Positions 37,691-45,716 of a DNA stretch of 64,000 nt are shown piece by piece (position 1 is the first letter of the stretch; every line of letters starts with the position of its first letter). The notes below the pieces were generated by a model. That model did no database searches. It was not told the origin of the DNA and saw nothing but the letters and a program-made list of their open reading frames with translations. The position numbers and the translations under genes were made by a program. Source of the stretch: Truepera radiovictrix DSM 17093 (GTDB lineage Bacteria > Deinococcota > Deinococci > Deinococcales > Trueperaceae); NCBI RefSeq assembly GCF_000092425.1, contig NC_014221.1, positions 1,617,001 to 1,681,000 on the forward strand. The letters run 5' to 3'.

Positions 37691-40600
37691 TTAAGCCGCC
37701 CGCTCGCGGCGGATGCTAAAGACGCGGCTCACCCCGCGCTCGGTCGTCACCCCCCAGAGCGCCCCCGCCGTCTCCATCGTCGCTTTCTGGTGGGTGATGA
37801 GGATAAACTGCGTCCCGCGGCGCGACAGCTCCGACAAAAAGGTGCAGAAGCGGCGGATGTTGGCCTCGTCGAGGGGGGCGTCGACCTCGTCGAGCACGGC
37901 CAGCGGCAGCCCCGCGGGTCCTGAACCCGGTTGCGGAGCGCAGAGGGCGAACAAAAAGGCAAGCGCCCCCATCGTCCGTTCGCCGACCGACAGCAGCGAG
38001 AGCGAACGCGTCGTCTTACCGGGGGGTTGCAGCGCGAGCTTGAGCCCGCTCGGCCGACCATCCTCCCAGAGGAGCTCGGTGCTGGCGGCCGCGCCGCGCC
38101 CGAAGAGGTGTTCGGCGTAGCGCGCGAAGTCCTCACTGAGCTGCGCCGCGCCCGCTACTAGGCGCGCTCTCACCGTCTCGTCGAGTTCGGCCACGACCGC
38201 GTGCAGCTCGCGCACAGCGCGCTCCCCCTCGCCGCGCTGCGCGTCGAGCGCCGTGAGGCGTTCGCGCAGCGCGGCGAGCTCGGTGGCCGCGCGGTGGTTG
38301 ACCGGCCCGAGCGCTGCGAGGCGCGCTTCGGCCGCCGCGAGGCGCTCGCGCAGCGTCCGCGCGGGCGCCTCCAGAGGCGCGAGGCCGGGCGGAAACGCTG
38401 CGAGCTCCGCCTCGGCGGCTTCGAGCGCCGCCTCGCGGCGCGCCACGGTGAGATTGAGCGCCTCGAGCTCACCCCTTTGCGCCGCCTGCTGCTGGCTGAG
38501 GTGCTCGAGCGCCCCCTCGGCCTCCCGCTCGCGCGCGCGCGCCGCCGCAAGCGCCACGTGGGGGGCGTCGGGGTCGGTGGGCAGCGCCGCGCGGGCGGCC
38601 TCCAAGGCCGCTGCGGCCTCCGCCTCGGCGTCTGCGGCCGCCGCCTGCGCGGCGCGGAGTTCGGCCGCGCGCGCGCGCAGCGCGCCGAGCCGGGCGCGCG
38701 TCTCGTCGAAGTGGCGCCGCGCCGCCTCGTAGCTCGAGCGCCGCTCGAGCCACACGGCGAGCGCCCGCTGCGCCTCAGCTACCGCGCGCTGCGCCGCCGA
38801 AGCGCCCTCGCGCGCCCCTTGCAGGCGCGCTGTGGCCGCCTCGAGCGCCCCCTCCAGGGCGCCGAGGTCACCCCCCGGCAGCGGCGGCGGCGGCTCGAGC
38901 CCACGGGTCGCCGCCTCCAGGGCGCGGCGGCGCCGCTCGAGGTCGGCCTCGAGCGAGGCGCGCGCGGCCGCCGCCTCGCGCAGCTTGGCGTCCTCGGCGC
39001 GCGCTGCCTCGAGCGCCCGCTCGGCGCGCTCGCGCGCCTCGCGCAGCGCCCTTAGCGTCCCCTGCTGCGCGACGAGCGCCGCCTCGGCCTCCGCCGCCGC
39101 CCCTTCGGCGGCCGCAGCCTCCTCCTCGGCACCTTTGAGCTCAGCCGCCGCCCCCAAGACGAGGCCCGCGGTCTGCGGACGCCCGCCGGAGAGGGCGCCG
39201 TAGGCTTCGAGGACGTCCCCTTCGAGGGTGACCATGCGCGGCCGCTGCGGGTAGCGCCGCGCGAGCGCGACCCCCGCGTCGAGGGTCGTCACGAGCAGCG
39301 TCGCCCCCAGCAGGTTTTCCACCACCGCCGCGAAACGCGCGTCACAGCGAACGAGCTCGCTGCAGCGGCCGATCACCGCCCCTTCGGCGAGCAGCTCGGG
39401 GGCGACGCGGGTGCTGCGCGCCTGGATGAGGTCTAAAGGCAGCACGGTGACCCACCCCCCCGCGCGCCGGACGTGCGCGAGCACCGCCTGCGCGACCTCC
39501 GCAGAGGCCACCACGACGTTTTCGGCGCGGCGCCCGAGGGCGCTCGCGAGCGCGACGCGGTAGCGCTCCGGCACCGCGATGAGGTCGGCGACCGACCCGA
39601 AGACGCCCGCGATCCCCGACGTCAGGGCGCTCTTGGGGCCCTGGGTGTAGCCGCGGCGCGCCTCGAAAGCGGCGCGCAGCCGCGCGGCGGCCGTGCGCTT
39701 CGCCTGGTGCTCGGCGACCGCCGCCGCGTGCCGCCCCTGCAGCGCTACGACCGCCTCCTGGGCGGTGGCGAGCGCGCGCAGCGCGCGTTCGCGCTCGGCC
39801 TGCGCCGCTTCGAGGGCCGCCGCGGCGTCGCCCTGCGCCGCCTGCGAGGCCGCCGCGCGCGCCTCGAGGGCGGCCTCGTCGGCGGCGAGCGCCGCGCGCT
39901 GCTTTTCGAGCGCCTCGAGCTGCGCTTGGTAGCGCGAGCGCGCCGCGCGCGCGTCGGCGTCGCGGCGCTGCGCCTCGCGGAGCGCCGCCGCTCGGGCAGC
40001 GACCTCCTCCTCCAACGTGGCGAGCGCCGCCTGTGTCTCGGCTGCCTGCGCCTCGGCCGTTTGCAGGCGGTCGCGCAGGGTCGCTTCGTCCCCTTCGGGG
40101 GGCTCGGGCGGGGTGAGCGCCTCGCCGGCGGTGACGTCGCGCGCGACGCGCGCGGCCTCTTCGGCGAGGGCGGCGCGGCGCGCCCCGAGCGACGCCAGCC
40201 GCTCCTCGGCGAGGCGCACGTCGGCGCGCCGCGCCGCGTGCTGCGCGACGGCGGCCCGCAACGCCGCCTCGGCGGCCTCCGACGCCGCGCGCGCCGCGCG
40301 GCGCTCAGCCTCGGCCTCGACGAGCGCTTCGCGCCCCGCCGCGACAGCCTCCTCGAGCTCGGCGCGGCGCGCGCGCAACCCCTTAAGCTCCTCCCGAAGC
40401 CCCCGCACGCGGCCGTGGGCGAGCGAAAAGCGCACCTGCAAGCGCTCGCGTTCGGCCGCGGCGGCGCTCGCGGCGTCGGCGGCCTCGCGCTCCAGACCCG
40501 AGAGGCGCGCCGCGAGCTCGCCGCGCAGATCCCCTAAACGCGCGAGGTGCTCCTGCGCCTCGGCGAGGCGCGCCAGGGTCGTCTCGCGGCGCGCGGCGAG

Positions 40601-41086
40601 GCGGGCGACACCGACGCTCTCGGCGAGGAAGGCGAGCAGCTTGGGCGGGTCAGCCATGAGCACGCTGCCGACCTCCCCTTGCCCGATGACCGCCAATGCG
40701 CCGCGCCCGAGCCCGCTGCCCGCGAGCGCCTCCTCGAGGTCCAAAAAGCGCGCCGCGCGCCCCCCGAGGCGCAGCTGGCTCTCACCGCTACGCAGCAGCG
40801 TGCGCGACACGCAGAGCGTCTCGCCCTCGCGCTCGAACTCGAGCTGCACCTCGGCGAACCCCAAGCTGCGTTTGCCCGCCGAACCGTGAAAGATGAGCTC
40901 GGTCTTGTCGCCCGCGCGAAACGCCTCCGCCCGCCCCCCACCGGTCGCCCAGCGCAGCGCGTCGATCAGGTTGGATTTGCCCGAACCGTTGGGCCCGACG
41001 ATCGCCGTGACCCCTTCGGTGAACTCCAAGGTGGTGCGGTCGGCGAAGCTTTTAAAACCCTGCAAGGTGAGCGAGGTCAGGCGCAC
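37691..41086 (-). CDS. smc: Chromosome segregation protein SMC
   Basis: A 1131-residue condensin ATPase. Walker A is IVGPNGSGKSNLIDALRW at residues 30-47. Two long Ala/Arg/Glu-rich coiled-coil arms flank a hinge near residues 490-640 (VFGSVADLIAVPERYRVAL onward). Walker B is PLAVLDEVDAPLDEANI near the C-terminus. The ABC signature reads SLLSVGERTM, where most SMCs have SGGE, so the central glycine is valine. Coiled-coil composition is highly Ala-rich. The GTG start has TACACT 7 bases upstream, a leaderless arrangement. birA follows directly. Confidence 0.95.
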   Translation of the reverse strand: MRLTSLTLQGFKSFADRTTLEFTEGVTAIVGPNGSGKSNLIDALRWATGGGRAEAFRAGDKTELIFHGSAGKRSLGFAEVQLEFEREGETLCVSRTLLRSGESQLRLGGRAARFLDLEEALAGSGLGRGALAVIGQGEVGSVLMADPPKLLAFLAESVGVARLAARRETTLARLAEAQEHLARLGDLRGELAARLSGLEREAADAASAAAAERERLQVRFSLAHGRVRGLREELKGLRARRAELEEAVAAGREALVEAEAERRAARAASEAAEAALRAAVAQHAARRADVRLAEERLASLGARRAALAEEAARVARDVTAGEALTPPEPPEGDEATLRDRLQTAEAQAAETQAALATLEEEVAARAAALREAQRRDADARAARSRYQAQLEALEKQRAALAADEAALEARAAASQAAQGDAAAALEAAQAERERALRALATAQEAVVALQGRHAAAVAEHQAKRTAAARLRAAFEARRGYTQGPKSALTSGIAGVFGSVADLIAVPERYRVALASALGRRAENVVVASAEVAQAVLAHVRRAGGWVTVLPLDLIQARSTRVAPELLAEGAVIGRCSELVRCDARFAAVVENLLGATLLVTTLDAGVALARRYPQRPRMVTLEGDVLEAYGALSGGRPQTAGLVLGAAAELKGAEEEAAAAEGAAAEAEAALVAQQGTLRALREARERAERALEAARAEDAKLREAAAARASLEADLERRRRALEAATRGLEPPPPLPGGDLGALEGALEAATARLQGAREGASAAQRAVAEAQRALAVWLERRSSYEAARRHFDETRARLGALRARAAELRAAQAAAADAEAEAAAALEAARAALPTDPDAPHVALAAARAREREAEGALEHLSQQQAAQRGELEALNLTVARREAALEAAEAELAAFPPGLAPLEAPARTLRERLAAAEARLAALGPVNHRAATELAALRERLTALDAQRGEGERAVRELHAVVAELDETVRARLVAGAAQLSEDFARYAEHLFGRGAAASTELLWEDGRPSGLKLALQPPGKTTRSLSLLSVGERTMGALAFLFALCAPQPGSGPAGLPLAVLDEVDAPLDEANIRRFCTFLSELSRRGTQFILITHQKATMETAGALWGVTTERGVSRVFSIRRERAA

Positions 41087-41195: not shown

Positions 41196-41241
41196 TCTTT
41201 GTTTGATCTCACCCTCTAAAGCGCTTCTCAAAGGAACCTGG

Positions 41242-41253: not shown

Positions 41254-42096
41254 ATGCTTCGGCCCTCTCGATCCAGGCTGCGCCTCGGCGGCGCCCTGCT
41301 CCTGCTCCTCGCGGGGTGCGGCGGCGAACTCGACTCCCCGGGGGAGGCGCTGCGCCTCTTTTCGTCCTCGTTAGACCCCGCCTTCGTCGGCGAGGCGTAC
41401 AGCTTCGACCTCGTCGTCACGGGCGGGCTCGCCCCCTACCGCTTCGAACTCCAAGGGGGCAGCCTCCCCCCCGGCGTGACGCTGCAAAACGGCACGCTGA
41501 GCGGGGTGCCGACGCGCGAGGGGCGCTTCGACTTCTCCGTTTCGGTGAGCGACGCGCGGCTCTCGCGCACGGTGCAGGACTTTTCGCTCGAGGTCACCAC
41601 GCCCCCCCCCGCCGAGCTGGTGCTAAACGTCCCGCCGACCGAGGTGCGCGACGTCGTCACGGTGCCCATTAGCGTCCGCGGGGGGCGCAACCTCCAGGCG
41701 CTGCGCACGCAGCTTCGCTGGAACGACGCGCGCTTCGAGCTCGTACCGGGGAGCGTGCGCGCCGCGCGCGGCAACCTCGCGCTCTTGCAGCGCGCGCAGG
41801 CGGGGGAGCTGAGCGTGGACGTGGCCTTTTTGGGGCCCGCTCTCACCGGCGACGCGCAGCTCTTTACCTTCGACCTCCGGCCCGTTCAGCCGAGCACCCT
41901 GCGGCTCACGGCCCGCACCGAGTACCGCACCCGGGACGGCGAACACGGGTTTTCGGCAGCCGAGGCCGGTACCGAACCGGTGGAGGAGGCAGAGGTGGAG
42001 GAGGCGGAACAAGGGGCGCCCGAACCGGAGCCCGACCCCACGGAGGAAGACGACACCACCGGCGGCAGCGACCCCGAGGATGGGGGGGGCTTATGA
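41254..42096 (+). CDS. Lipoprotein with Ig-like and cohesin-like domains
   Basis: A 280-residue exported lipoprotein. The lipobox is LLLLLAGC with the lipidated Cys at residue 22. Residues 34-115 form a putative He_PIG/Ig-like domain (AYSFDLVVTGGLAPYRFELQ, SLPPGVTLQNGTLSGVPT). Residues 117-235 look like a cohesin domain: EVRDVVTVPISVRGGRNLQA, QLRWNDARFELVPGSV and LFTFDLRP follow the pattern of a beta-sandwich that binds dockerins. The C-terminal 45 residues are acidic and disordered. The gene is the first of three overlapping genes, the third of which encodes a dockerin-like module. Cohesin assignment is by pattern only. Confidence 0.72.
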   Translation: MLRPSRSRLRLGGALLLLLAGCGGELDSPGEALRLFSSSLDPAFVGEAYSFDLVVTGGLAPYRFELQGGSLPPGVTLQNGTLSGVPTREGRFDFSVSVSDARLSRTVQDFSLEVTTPPPAELVLNVPPTEVRDVVTVPISVRGGRNLQALRTQLRWNDARFELVPGSVRAARGNLALLQRAQAGELSVDVAFLGPALTGDAQLFTFDLRPVQPSTLRLTARTEYRTRDGEHGFSAAEAGTEPVEEAEVEEAEQGAPEPEPDPTEEDDTTGGSDPEDGGGL

Positions 42097-42671
42097 CGCG
42101 CGCCCATTGGGGAGCGTTCACACCGCACGGGAGCTTCGGCTGGCTGAGCGTCCTTTTGCTGCTCGGCTTGGCCCTCAGCGCCTCTGCAACCGCGACGACC
42201 TTTCGCGAGCGGTCGCTCGACGAGCTTTTTCGCGCCGCGGAGATCGGCTTTTACGGGACGGTCCGCGAGCTCAGCACCGAAAACCGCGGCGGCGACCCCT
42301 ACACGCTTGTCACTTTCGAGGTCGCGCGCGCCTTTCGGGGGGTGCCCGAAGGGGCGGCCGGGGAGGCGCCGACCGTGCAGCTGGCCTTTTTAGGGGGCAC
42401 GCTGCCGAACGGGCAGACGCTCTCGGTCGCGGGGATGCCCGAGTTTGCGCTCGGCGACGAGGTGCTCGTGCTCGCCTACGACGCCCCCTACTACTCCCCC
42501 ATCGTGGGGTTTTCGCAGGGGCTGTGGCGGCGCACGCCCTCGGGGCTCGTCGACCCCTTTAACCGCACGCTCGCGCTTAGCGCCGCGGGCACGCTCGTCC
42601 GGGGCGGTGACGACACCGACGTGCAGGCGGTTCTGGCGGCCGTGCAGCGGCGCCTCTCGGGGGCGCCGTGA
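42093..42671 (+). CDS. Secreted protein of unknown function in the cohesin operon
   Basis: A 192-residue exported protein. A hydrophobic signal helix (WLSVLLLLGLALSASATA) is followed by a mature domain starting TTFRERSLDELFRAAEIGFYGTV shown by its core SLDELFRAAEIGFYGTV. Alternating strands such as PYTLVTFEVARAFRG and ALGDEVLVLAYDAPYYSP suggest a small beta domain of a kind seen in proteins of unknown role that carry secreted metalloprotease-like modules. It overlaps both neighbours by 4 bases, so expression is tightly coupled. I cannot name a family with confidence. Confidence 0.65.
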   Translation: MTRAHWGAFTPHGSFGWLSVLLLLGLALSASATATTFRERSLDELFRAAEIGFYGTVRELSTENRGGDPYTLVTFEVARAFRGVPEGAAGEAPTVQLAFLGGTLPNGQTLSVAGMPEFALGDEVLVLAYDAPYYSPIVGFSQGLWRRTPSGLVDPFNRTLALSAAGTLVRGGDDTDVQAVLAAVQRRLSGAP

Positions 42672-43489
42672 GGCGGCTTTGGGGCGCGCTCGCCGCCTCC
42701 ACCCTGATCGTCGGGGGCGCAGCGTTCGCGGTCGACTACCGCCTCAACGCCGAAGGGGGCCCGGGGGACCTCGGTGAACGGGTCGCGCGCGCTTTCGAGC
42801 GGTGGGCGGCGGTCGAGGGGGGCGAGGTACGCTTTAACGAGGACCCGGCCGCGCCCGCCGTCATCCGCTACGGCGACGGGACCCGCTTCGGCCCCGACAC
42901 CCTGTCACTCACCGTGCAGCGCACGCCGGAGACCGAGACGCGGGTGCTCTTAAACCCGACCGCACCCGACGAGCGCGCCCTGCTCCACGAGGTCGGGCTG
43001 CTCTTGGGGCTCGCGCCAGCCCCGCTCACCCAGAGCGTGATGAACCCCCTGCTGGGGCCCGGTGCGGGCGCCGAGCTCACCCCCGCCGACGAAGCTGCGC
43101 TGCGCGCGCGCGTCGCGTTTGCCCCCGAGGACATCAACCAAGATGGGGTGGTGGACTTTTACGACCTCGCCGCCCTCGCCGCCGCCTACGGCTCGAGGGG
43201 GGTGAACTTGCCCGAAGACATCACGGGCGACGGCGTGGTCGACGGCGCCGACCTCGAGCGCCTGCGGGCGGCTTATGTGTTCGGCGCCCCCGCCGAGGTG
43301 CCGCCGGAAGCGGCGGTTGAAGGCGACCCGGAGGCGATGACCGGTGGCGCGATGACGGGTGGCGCGATGACGGGCGGGGCGTTGACGGGTGAAGAGGGGC
43401 GTGCGGACGTTGCCGGTGGCGGCGAGGCAGACGCCGACGCGCCCGACGACCTCGACGGTGCGGACGACGCGGCGGAGGGCGGCCTCTAG
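42668..43489 (+). CDS. Exported degenerate matrixin with dockerin-like repeats
   Basis: A 273-residue exported protein. A signal peptide ends near GGAAFA. Residues 30-150 follow the matrixin layout (RAFERWAAVEGG, RVLLNP, then the zinc region). The zinc motif reads LLHEVGLLLGLAPAP with SVMNP behind it. HE is kept at 107-108 but both other zinc ligands are replaced, so catalysis is unlikely. Residues 154-205 hold two dockerin/EF-hand type loops, EDINQDGVVDFYDLAAL and EDITGDGVVDGADLERL. A tail with four TGG(A/A)M repeats and acidic stretches ends the chain. It overlaps the preceding gene by 4 bases. Confidence 0.75.
   Translation: MRRLWGALAASTLIVGGAAFAVDYRLNAEGGPGDLGERVARAFERWAAVEGGEVRFNEDPAAPAVIRYGDGTRFGPDTLSLTVQRTPETETRVLLNPTAPDERALLHEVGLLLGLAPAPLTQSVMNPLLGPGAGAELTPADEAALRARVAFAPEDINQDGVVDFYDLAALAAAYGSRGVNLPEDITGDGVVDGADLERLRAAYVFGAPAEVPPEAAVEGDPEAMTGGAMTGGAMTGGALTGEEGRADVAGGGEADADAPDDLDGADDAAEGGL
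43334..43393 (+). repeat. Four tandem 15-base coding repeats
   Basis: Units start at 43334, 43349, 43364 and 43379, each close to GCGATGACGGGTGGC and encoding AMTGG-type pentapeptides in the tail of the dockerin-like protein. Such repeats change copy number easily by slippage. Confidence 0.8.
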
Positions 43490-43657: not shown

Positions 43658-44017
43658 ATGAACCGCCGTTACCGCTCGATGCTCGTGCTCCTTATCCCCC
43701 TCCTCCTCCTCGCAGGCTGCCGCAACGAGACCCAAAACCGCATCCGGCGTGAGATCCAAGACTTCACCGGTCAGCGCATGTTTATCACCGTCTACGCCTT
43801 TGATGGCACGCCGGTGTACGAGGGGCGCACCAACGGCCAGGTGACGCGCTCGGTCTCGAGCGTCGTTAACGGCGCCCCCACCGAGCTCGCCTCGTACGTC
43901 TACTGGTTCGACGAGACGGGGCGATACTTTCAGACCAACATGCCCTATTTGCTCTCCTCAGCGCCCCTCACCCCCGCTCAGGGCGGCGGCGCGTCGACCA
44001 CGCCGACGGCCCCTTGA
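43658..44017 (+). CDS. Small lipoprotein of unknown function
   Basis: A 119-residue exported lipoprotein. The signal and lipobox are LLIPLLLLAGC with Cys at residue 21. The mature part has TGQRMFITVYAFDGTPVYEG and YVYWFDETGRYFQTN, a short beta-rich domain. The C-terminus is a low-complexity Gly/Ala/Thr/Pro tail. AAGGAG precedes the ATG, and TATGCT (43564-43569) is a plausible -10 box. The gene follows the cohesin operon after a 168-base gap that otherwise holds nothing I recognise. Confidence 0.68.
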   Translation: MNRRYRSMLVLLIPLLLLAGCRNETQNRIRREIQDFTGQRMFITVYAFDGTPVYEGRTNGQVTRSVSSVVNGAPTELASYVYWFDETGRYFQTNMPYLLSSAPLTPAQGGGASTTPTAP

Positions 44018-44130
44018 GGCGGCGGCGCGTCGCCTTTCACTGCGGGGTCAGGGGCTGCTTGTGAAACTTTTCTTCTTTGTGTGAAGCTTTCGTGGAGGCC
44101 TCCCCGCGCCGCTGCGCCCCGAAAGCTTGC

Positions 44131-44136
44131 TACACT
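44131..44136 (+). promoter_or_regulatory. Leaderless -10 box
   Basis: TACACT ends 6 bases before ATG 44143. A weak repeat-like GTGAAACTTTTCTT lies upstream at 44061. Confidence 0.5.
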
Positions 44137-44142
44137 AGCGCC

Positions 44143-44589
44143 ATGAGCCGCTACCGCGTCACCTTCGTGGCCCTTTTGGCCCTCGTTTTAGGTGGATGTA
44201 CGGTCTACGTCCGCCCCGACACCACCCCCCCCGTACGCCCCGTGCCGGTCAGCGTCGAGGCGATCCGCACCTTTGAACCGACGCGCGGCGCGGGGGCGGT
44301 CTACGACCTCGGCAGCACGATCTCCTTTCGCCTGCTCACCACCCAAGACGGCTACGTCACGCTGACCTCGTTCGGCGCGGGCGGGGTGGTGCGCGTGTTC
44401 GAGCGCAACGTCTTCGTGCGCGCCAACACCCCGGTCGAACTGCCCGGGGACGTGCGCAGGGTCGCCTACGAGGTCTCGCCGCCGCGCGGCGAACGCACGG
44501 TGCGGGCCTCGTTTAGCCCCGAACCCTTCCCCGATGAGCTCCCCGAAGGGGCGCTCGACGAAGCCGAAACGACCTTTTTCGTCCGTTGA
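44143..44589 (+). CDS. Lipoprotein with a DUF4384-like domain
   Basis: A 148-residue lipoprotein with lipobox LALVLGGC (Cys near residue 19). The mature sequence YDLGSTISFRLLTTQDGYVT followed by SFGAGGVVRVFERN is typical of DUF4384 domains, small beta-sandwiches seen in secreted or lipoproteins of Deinococcota and others. The function is unknown. The ATG follows a leaderless promoter. The stop overlaps the TTG start of the CAP-domain gene (TTGA), so the two are translationally coupled. Confidence 0.72.
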   Translation: MSRYRVTFVALLALVLGGCTVYVRPDTTPPVRPVPVSVEAIRTFEPTRGAGAVYDLGSTISFRLLTTQDGYVTLTSFGAGGVVRVFERNVFVRANTPVELPGDVRRVAYEVSPPRGERTVRASFSPEPFPDELPEGALDEAETTFFVR

Positions 44590-45716
44590 AGCTCCCCGGG
44601 GCGCGCTTCGCGCTCACCGTGATCCTGTGGGGGACGCTCGTGGGCGCCGCCGTTCGTGCGGCCCCCGCCCCCTACCCCCCGCTCCCCGCAGACCCCACCC
44701 TCGAGGCCGAGCTGCTAAACCTCACCAACGCGGCGCGCGCGCGCGAGGGGCTCGGCGCGCTCGTCCCCGACGAGGCGCTCGCGCTCGCCGCGCGCCACCA
44801 CGCGCTCGAGATGCGCACGCTGGGGTTTTTCGCGCACACCTCGCCGACGCCGGAGAACGCCACCCTAAGCCGGCGGGTCGCTCGCTCCGGGAGCTTTGCC
44901 CGCGTGCTCGGCGAAAACCTCGCCTGGATCCGGGGTGGGGCGGTCGCCGCGGAGAGCGTCGCGGGGTGGCTGAGCTCCCCCGGCCACCGCGCGAACCTGC
45001 TCAGCCCCGACTTTACCCACGTCGGGTTCGGGAGCGCCGCCGCCGAAGACGGCCGCACCTTCGTCGCGCAGGTGTTCGCCTACCTGCCCGCGCCCCTCGA
45101 GGCCGCAGAGGTCGTCGCCACCCCGGAGCAGGTCACCCTCACGGCGGTGCGGTTCGAGCTCACCCGGCCCGCCGAGGTCGCCCTCTTTTACGAGGGTGAC
45201 CTCGGCGGCGCGCACACCCCGGTGACGGCCCTGGAGGCGGGGGAGCACACCCTCACCACCGAGGCGTTGGGCGCTGGGGAGGCGGTGCACCTCCAGCTCG
45301 GCGTACGTGCGCCGGGCGCGAACGGGAGCTTTTCCGCGCAGGACGAGGGCTGGCTCGAGGCGGGCAGGTGGCGGGGGGGCGGGGGCGCGCCGCGCGACGG
45401 CGCGCGCCTCCTGCAGGTCACGCAGCGGCGCCAGGAGCGGCGCACCGAGGAGGTGCAGCTGCGCTTCGCGGGGCGCTTGCCGAGAGGGCTCGGTGGGTGG
45501 TGGGGGGAGCGGTTTTTCGCGCCCACCCTCGAGGAGACGGCCGTGGGGACGGTGCTGCGCGCGACCGTCCCCACCGCGGACGGCGCCGAAGGGCCGCCCG
45601 TTCTGCTTTTAGGGGAGCCGGACGGGGCGGGGACGTACCGGGTCGTGTACGGTTTTCAGCTCCTCCGGGAGGGTGACGCGCCGCGCCTCGTCCCCGCTCC
45701 CCCCGACGCGCCGTAG
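44586..45716 (+). CDS. Secreted CAP-domain (SCP/PR1-like) protein
   Basis: A 376-residue exported protein. The N-terminal signal helix LTVILWGTLVGAAVRA follows Lys and Arg if the TTG start overlapping the upstream stop is used. The CAP domain spans about residues 30-165: LLNLTNAARAREGLGALVPD, LAARHHALEMRTLGFFAHTS, LGENLAWIRGG and SPGHRANLLSPDFTHVGFG hold the conserved His and Glu cavity residues. The remaining 200 residues are beta-rich repeats of unknown kind. Bacterial CAP proteins are often cell-envelope or spore-coat associated. The activity here is unknown. Confidence 0.85.
   Translation: MKLPGARFALTVILWGTLVGAAVRAAPAPYPPLPADPTLEAELLNLTNAARAREGLGALVPDEALALAARHHALEMRTLGFFAHTSPTPENATLSRRVARSGSFARVLGENLAWIRGGAVAAESVAGWLSSPGHRANLLSPDFTHVGFGSAAAEDGRTFVAQVFAYLPAPLEAAEVVATPEQVTLTAVRFELTRPAEVALFYEGDLGGAHTPVTALEAGEHTLTTEALGAGEAVHLQLGVRAPGANGSFSAQDEGWLEAGRWRGGGGAPRDGARLLQVTQRRQERRTEEVQLRFAGRLPRGLGGWWGERFFAPTLEETAVGTVLRATVPTADGAEGPPVLLLGEPDGAGTYRVVYGFQLLREGDAPRLVPAPPDAP

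Follow-up and report, generated by a model that had tools for sequence, protein, structure and literature searches.

A candidate non-cellulosomal cohesin-dockerin pair encoded by one operon in Truepera radiovictrix and by a fused gene in Thermaceae

Genes and features of the operon

We analysed a 64,000-nucleotide stretch of the genome of Truepera radiovictrix DSM 17093, a bacterium that tolerates heat and radiation; this stretch is hereafter the window, to which all coordinates refer. Three genes lie on its plus strand, P0001 (41254-42096), P0002 (42093-42671) and P0003 (42668-43489), and neighbouring genes overlap by four bases, ATGA at 42093-42096 and GTGA at 42668-42671. The initial annotation had described three genes with 4-base overlaps, and coordinates, strand and overlaps all agree with it. 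All three products are predicted to be exported, and the N-termini of P0002 and P0003 look signal-peptide-like by eye, in keeping with the earlier description of the former as a small secreted protein. The features are as follows.

41254-42096, plus strand: P0001, a lipoprotein consisting of a signal peptide, a He_PIG Ig-like domain, a cohesin domain and an acidic low-complexity tail; 102 of the 111 Deinococcota genomes analysed have a homologue
41308-41319, plus strand: lipobox LAGC with Cys22 as the predicted lipidation site, from the sequence and an alignment in which the Cys is invariant
41386-41598, plus strand: He_PIG putative Ig domain, residues 45-115 (Pfam PF05345, E = 1.5e-9)
41605-41973, plus strand: predicted cohesin domain, about residues 118-240, nine strands in an AlphaFold2 model (Foldseek matches 2jh2, 2vo8 and 2xdh; profile match 2vo8)
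42093-42671, plus strand: P0002, a secreted protein of a matrixin-partner family whose Myxococcota relatives adjoin intact matrixins
42668-43489, plus strand: P0003, an exported protein with a degenerate matrixin-like domain, a dockerin and a Gly/acidic tail (Pfam, family profile and alignment)
42986-43042, plus strand: degenerate zinc-site region HEVGLLLGLAPAPLTQSVM, residues 107-125 of P0003 (weak Pfam Peptidase_M10 match)
43127-43285, plus strand: dockerin with two calcium loops, residues 154-206 of P0003 (Pfam Dockerin_1; family profile against 2y3n)

A mechanical call would start P0001 at a TTG at 41203. We prefer the start at 41254 because it yields a normal signal peptide with the LAGC lipobox and because the homologues start there; Cys22 is invariant across 19 aligned homologues. 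Scans for promoters and terminators at the operon gave no result. An smc-like gene (37691-41086) adjoins the operon divergently in Truepera; none of the Thermus loci checked showed such a gene nearby. Downstream (43658-45716) lie genes for a small lipoprotein, a DUF4384 lipoprotein and a CAP-domain protein; in the relatives checked, none of these matched anything close to the operon.

The dockerin and the cohesin-like domain

Judged by its sequence, the C-terminal module of P0003 is a real two-loop dockerin. The calcium loops DINQDGVVDFYDL and DITGDGVVDGADL at residues 155-167 and 184-196 lie 29 residues apart, and the type I arrangement (PF00404), a calcium loop then a helix in each of two repeats, is found in P0003 and in its split homologues. 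The loop spacing is exactly 29 in 23 of the 26 split proteins measured. With both repeats counted, P0003 passes the Pfam cut-off, and no other protein of the complete 3.26-Mb genome matches Dockerin_1; 22 of 22 aligned homologues match the same model (best E = 6.8e-11). A profile of the P0003 family also finds a solved dockerin, 2y3n, in the PDB (E = 6.5e-13). The two dockerin-type calcium loops previously assigned to the exported third protein are confirmed by these matches.

The cohesin-like domain is less easily recognised by general models. Pfam Cohesin (PF00963) matches neither P0001 nor any of 22 aligned homologues at its cut-off, nor anything else in the complete T. radiovictrix genome; one homologue scores below threshold (E = 0.022). 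An AlphaFold2 model of P0001 built from 20 sequences contains two well-defined domains, the second of which (residues 121 to 238) has the nine strands of the cohesin fold, with block-mean pLDDT of 74-94 across the cohesin-like domain. Its top PDB match in Foldseek is the Clostridium perfringens cohesin 2jh2 (TM 0.75 over the target, rmsd 2.7), and other high matches include 2vo8, 2o4e and the Archaeoglobus non-cellulosomal cohesin 2xdh (TM 0.65). Multi-domain Ig-type chains score well in the same list, but with low TM.

Comparison of a cohesin-domain profile (alignment A7, 22 homologues) with PDB sequences gave the cohesin 2vo8 at E = 2.9e-4 as the sole match below 0.1, the next being at 0.43. 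Since A7 contained no known cohesin, the profile match and the fold match corroborate one another. Alignment of the cohesin profile with one bacteroidal-looking cohesin in hhalign was not significant, perhaps because the template was a single sequence. The predicted fold and the family profile thus support the assignment of P0001 residues about 118-240 to the cohesins, though Pfam does not. With lipobox, profile match and fold match in hand, the earlier description of P0001 as a lipoprotein with a cohesin-like domain holds; of the checks proposed for that domain, the fold and the family profile answered positively and the Pfam model failed.

It is conceivable that the operon encodes two independent modules, an Ig-like stalk that merely resembles a cohesin and a dockerin that acts as a calcium-stabilised C-terminal cap, binding something else or nothing. 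The missing Pfam cohesin call and the many Ig-type chains in the fold search, where such matches dominate for a Thermus homologue, are consistent with it. Against it, a cohesin is both the top single-domain match by fold and the sole match by sequence profile; genomic evidence given below also bears on this alternative.

The complete T. radiovictrix genome holds, beside its single dockerin, one A7-type cohesin domain, and no other partner for the P0003 dockerin is visible in it. A cellulosome, with a multi-cohesin scaffoldin and several dockerin enzymes, is excluded because only one cohesin-like domain and one dockerin are present. A lone dockerin does not hold as a general rule, other dockerins being present in some relatives. 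In some Thermus genomes a second kind occurs, on two large frames of about 655-771 residues located about 2-3 kb apart (six contigs). A metagenome-assembled genome of the window's family has a 1209-residue frame in which a dockerin occurs together with a Pfam cohesin (1.7e-10); this frame looks bacteroidal and is perhaps contamination.

Conservation in Deinococcota and the fused form

Of the 111 Deinococcota genomes analysed, 102 contain the lipoprotein and likewise 102 its dockerin, a co-occurrence that partly reflects shared ancestry. Seven genomes have neither partner, with not even a trace of the lipoprotein, and the remaining cases with one partner only are contigs ending at the locus or incomplete genomes. 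The three-gene operon is the arrangement in three families: f1, which includes T. radiovictrix, f2 and f3. Chance is excluded as its origin since order and strand are kept in all 26 fetched split loci that hold the three genes; the 4-base overlap is kept at the first junction in 21 of them and at the second in 16. P0002 is confined to these three families, with one copy in each of 44 genomes, and in at least two genera it forms one ORF with the dockerin protein. Related loci were found with a Thermaceae-only alignment as query, and a search with P0003 alone returned none. Matches in the plasmid collection are apparently He_PIG proteins only, and we found no papers naming such a system in Deinococcota.

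In two further families, Thermaceae and its sister family (members named Thermus, Meiothermus and Calidithermus), a single ORF encodes lipobox, He_PIG domain, cohesin region and C-terminal dockerin in frame in 30 of the 32 fetched loci, one exception being frame-broken and the other cut by a contig end. The fusion gene lies in several frames in the otherwise complete Thermus parvatiensis genome and at one other locus, reflecting either sequencing error or a pseudogene. The operon-dockerin profile detects the fused dockerin with E-values down to 4e-17 and mostly passes over unrelated dockerins in some of the same genomes; the two are therefore most likely the same module. A neighbourhood common to Truepera and Thermus was rejected: smc is divergent in the former, and the flanks in the latter are histidine-biosynthesis-like and nrdR-like by their translations. 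Because the flanks differ, only the operon or the fusion accounts for the linkage. No outgroup was found that would order the split and fused forms.

The Thermaceae fusions do not have both calcium loops of a canonical dockerin: the calcium ligands of loop 1 are gone and the second repeat is intact. In Thermus the 29-residue register is kept, and helix 1 retains an aromatic residue at position 10 (F/Y), Leu13, Ala17, an aromatic at 20 (W) and Gly21. Retention of these residues while calcium binding is lost suggests a binding role for helix 1. Were the dockerin a generic cap, their survival after loss of the calcium loop would be unexpected, and two independent modules would make the operon linkage, the joint absence and the in-frame fusion a coincidence. 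We regard such independence as unlikely, though it is the alternative that we take most seriously.

The strongest evidence lies outside the window: conservation of the operon in three families, the fusion, joint absence in seven genomes, and one cohesin and one dockerin in a complete genome make a binding pair likely. We consider with good confidence that P0001 and P0003 bind each other, and this binding may depend on calcium. That they are neighbouring genes in Truepera and are joined in Thermus and Meiothermus suggests that they bind mutually at the envelope, in a role that has nothing to do with cellulose.

Sharing a chain does not oblige a cohesin and a dockerin to pair: both can sit on an adaptor scaffoldin whose dockerin has another specificity (PMC4959524), binding another scaffoldin and not its own cohesin. 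Modules of the same chain could also bind in trans. Assembly could then take place between molecules, with the dockerin protein bridging or capping several lipoproteins in Truepera and the Thermaceae fusion forming head-to-tail chains on the envelope. In Meiothermus the two dockerin halves are set roughly 50-150 residues apart by Pro/Gln-rich linkers, which would suit such an arrangement. In contrast, AlphaFold2 gives the Thermus caliditerrae fusion a compact and confident model in which the linker is short (pLDDT 92-97 through the dockerin helices, pTM 0.73 despite about 40 disordered residues), which favours closing, and the T. radiovictrix proteins have one module each, so that no chain could grow there. 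Assembly between molecules is thus rather improbable.

The tethered domain and the proposed clasp

The N-terminal part of P0003 reads HEVGLLLGL...VMNP where a matrixin has HExxHxxGxxH...M. In the zinc site HEVGLLLGLAP the second and third zinc-binding His are absent and the Met-turn-like VM is kept. No homologue has HExxH (0 of 28), and the HExxHxxGxxH site of an M10 metallopeptidase is accordingly lost; HE-x-G is kept in 16 of the 28 and a Met-turn-like motif in the aligned ones, and families f2 and f3 lack even the HE. Profile evidence for the relationship is weak: residues 105-144 match Pfam Peptidase_M10 at E = 0.036 (best homologue 0.0023), the P0003 family profile matches MMP and snapalysin at about 0.1, and hhalign against one matrixin aligned the motif region only, with probability 5. 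From these sequence features the domain is a probable pseudoprotease.

A search for P0002 relatives in six genomes, to which Myxococcota and unclassified loci had led, found them in the five that are myxobacterial. In all ten Myxococcota loci inspected the P0002-like gene directly adjoins a matrixin gene whose zinc motif is intact, which indicates that the pairing of P0002 and matrixin exists outside Deinococcota. The myxobacterial proteases in these bicistrons have an intact HExxHxxGxxH, whereas the Deinococcota domain is broken and bears a dockerin. We note the P0002-like family as a recurrent partner of bacterial matrixins; no Pfam or NCBIfam model was found for it, the nearest named model being NF041905 (MXAN_2677/2678), a weak NCBIfam match of P0002.

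The intact version beside P0002 in Myxococcota, the HE-x-G motif and the Met-turn-like motif could indicate a dormant protease, still an unusual metalloenzyme with fewer ligands that is tethered and held by P0002. We find this very improbable, given that HExxH is missing throughout, that the third His is gone as well and that f2 and f3 do without HE.

We propose instead that the operon encodes a private cohesin-dockerin pair forming a small exported complex tethered to the envelope, and that the Thermaceae fusion is a clasp; we put the probability of this reading at roughly two in three. P0001 would be the socket, made of lipid anchor, Ig-like stalk and cohesin, and P0003 the plug, whose calcium-loaded dockerin would dock into it. 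Docking would tether the matrixin-like domain, which is probably the tethered part, plus P0002 as its conserved partner. In Thermaceae and its sister family, which lack P0002 and the putative pseudoprotease, the dockerin fused to the lipoprotein probably packs onto its own cohesin; in our best reading this form is reduced to a single, possibly self-clasping protein. The initial annotation had inferred a minimal non-cellulosomal tethering system made of cohesin and dockerin from one operon. Its central idea is probably right, and the system extends further across the phylum than a single window could reveal. Tethering outside a cellulosome is the best-supported reading, given the fold, the profile, the genome-wide uniqueness and the Thermaceae fusion; "minimal" had to be dropped in view of the conserved third member and the degenerate matrixin-like domain on the dockerin protein. 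The matrixin-like N-terminus, the He_PIG domain and the Thermaceae fusion are new beyond that earlier reading.

Archaeoglobus fulgidus likewise has a cohesin-dockerin pair outside cellulosomes, whose cohesin 2xdh is among the P0001 fold matches (Voronov-Goldman 2011, as cited in PMC9705933). That pair is known from one archaeon, whereas in Deinococcota we see a phylum-wide single-copy operon and a fused version. To our knowledge, the archaeal pair involves no lipoprotein, pseudo-matrixin or P0002. Closest to P0001 by fold and profile are the cohesins of C. perfringens glycoside hydrolases (2jh2, 2vo8, 2o4e), an organism in which cohesin and dockerin form non-cellulosomal complexes of secreted proteins. 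There the modules sit on large glycoside hydrolases, whereas in Truepera a small lipoprotein carries the cohesin and a degenerate protease-like protein the dockerin. The module families are common to the scaffoldins and enzyme dockerins (type I/II) of cellulosomes, but Truepera has a single cohesin, no carbohydrate-active domain and no other dockerin protein in its genome.

Cohesin-dockerin binding has been studied almost solely in cellulosomes, and the non-cellulosomal cases lack an evident function. A pair kept in single copy in Thermus, Meiothermus, Calidithermus and Truepera that also exists as a natural fusion offers a small testable system of thermophilic proteins, and Thermus thermophilus is open to genetics. 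It may provide a new orthogonal, thermostable binding pair and would exemplify the conversion of a protease module into a structural one. More tentatively, and at somewhat less than even odds, we hypothesize that much of Deinococcota keeps a single-copy cohesin-dockerin clasp on an envelope lipoprotein, as a tether for a pseudoprotease and its ancestral partner in one branch and in the other as a self-closing chain in which one half of the dockerin would do without calcium. If so, the clasp would be a conserved device of the envelope and not one for substrate degradation.
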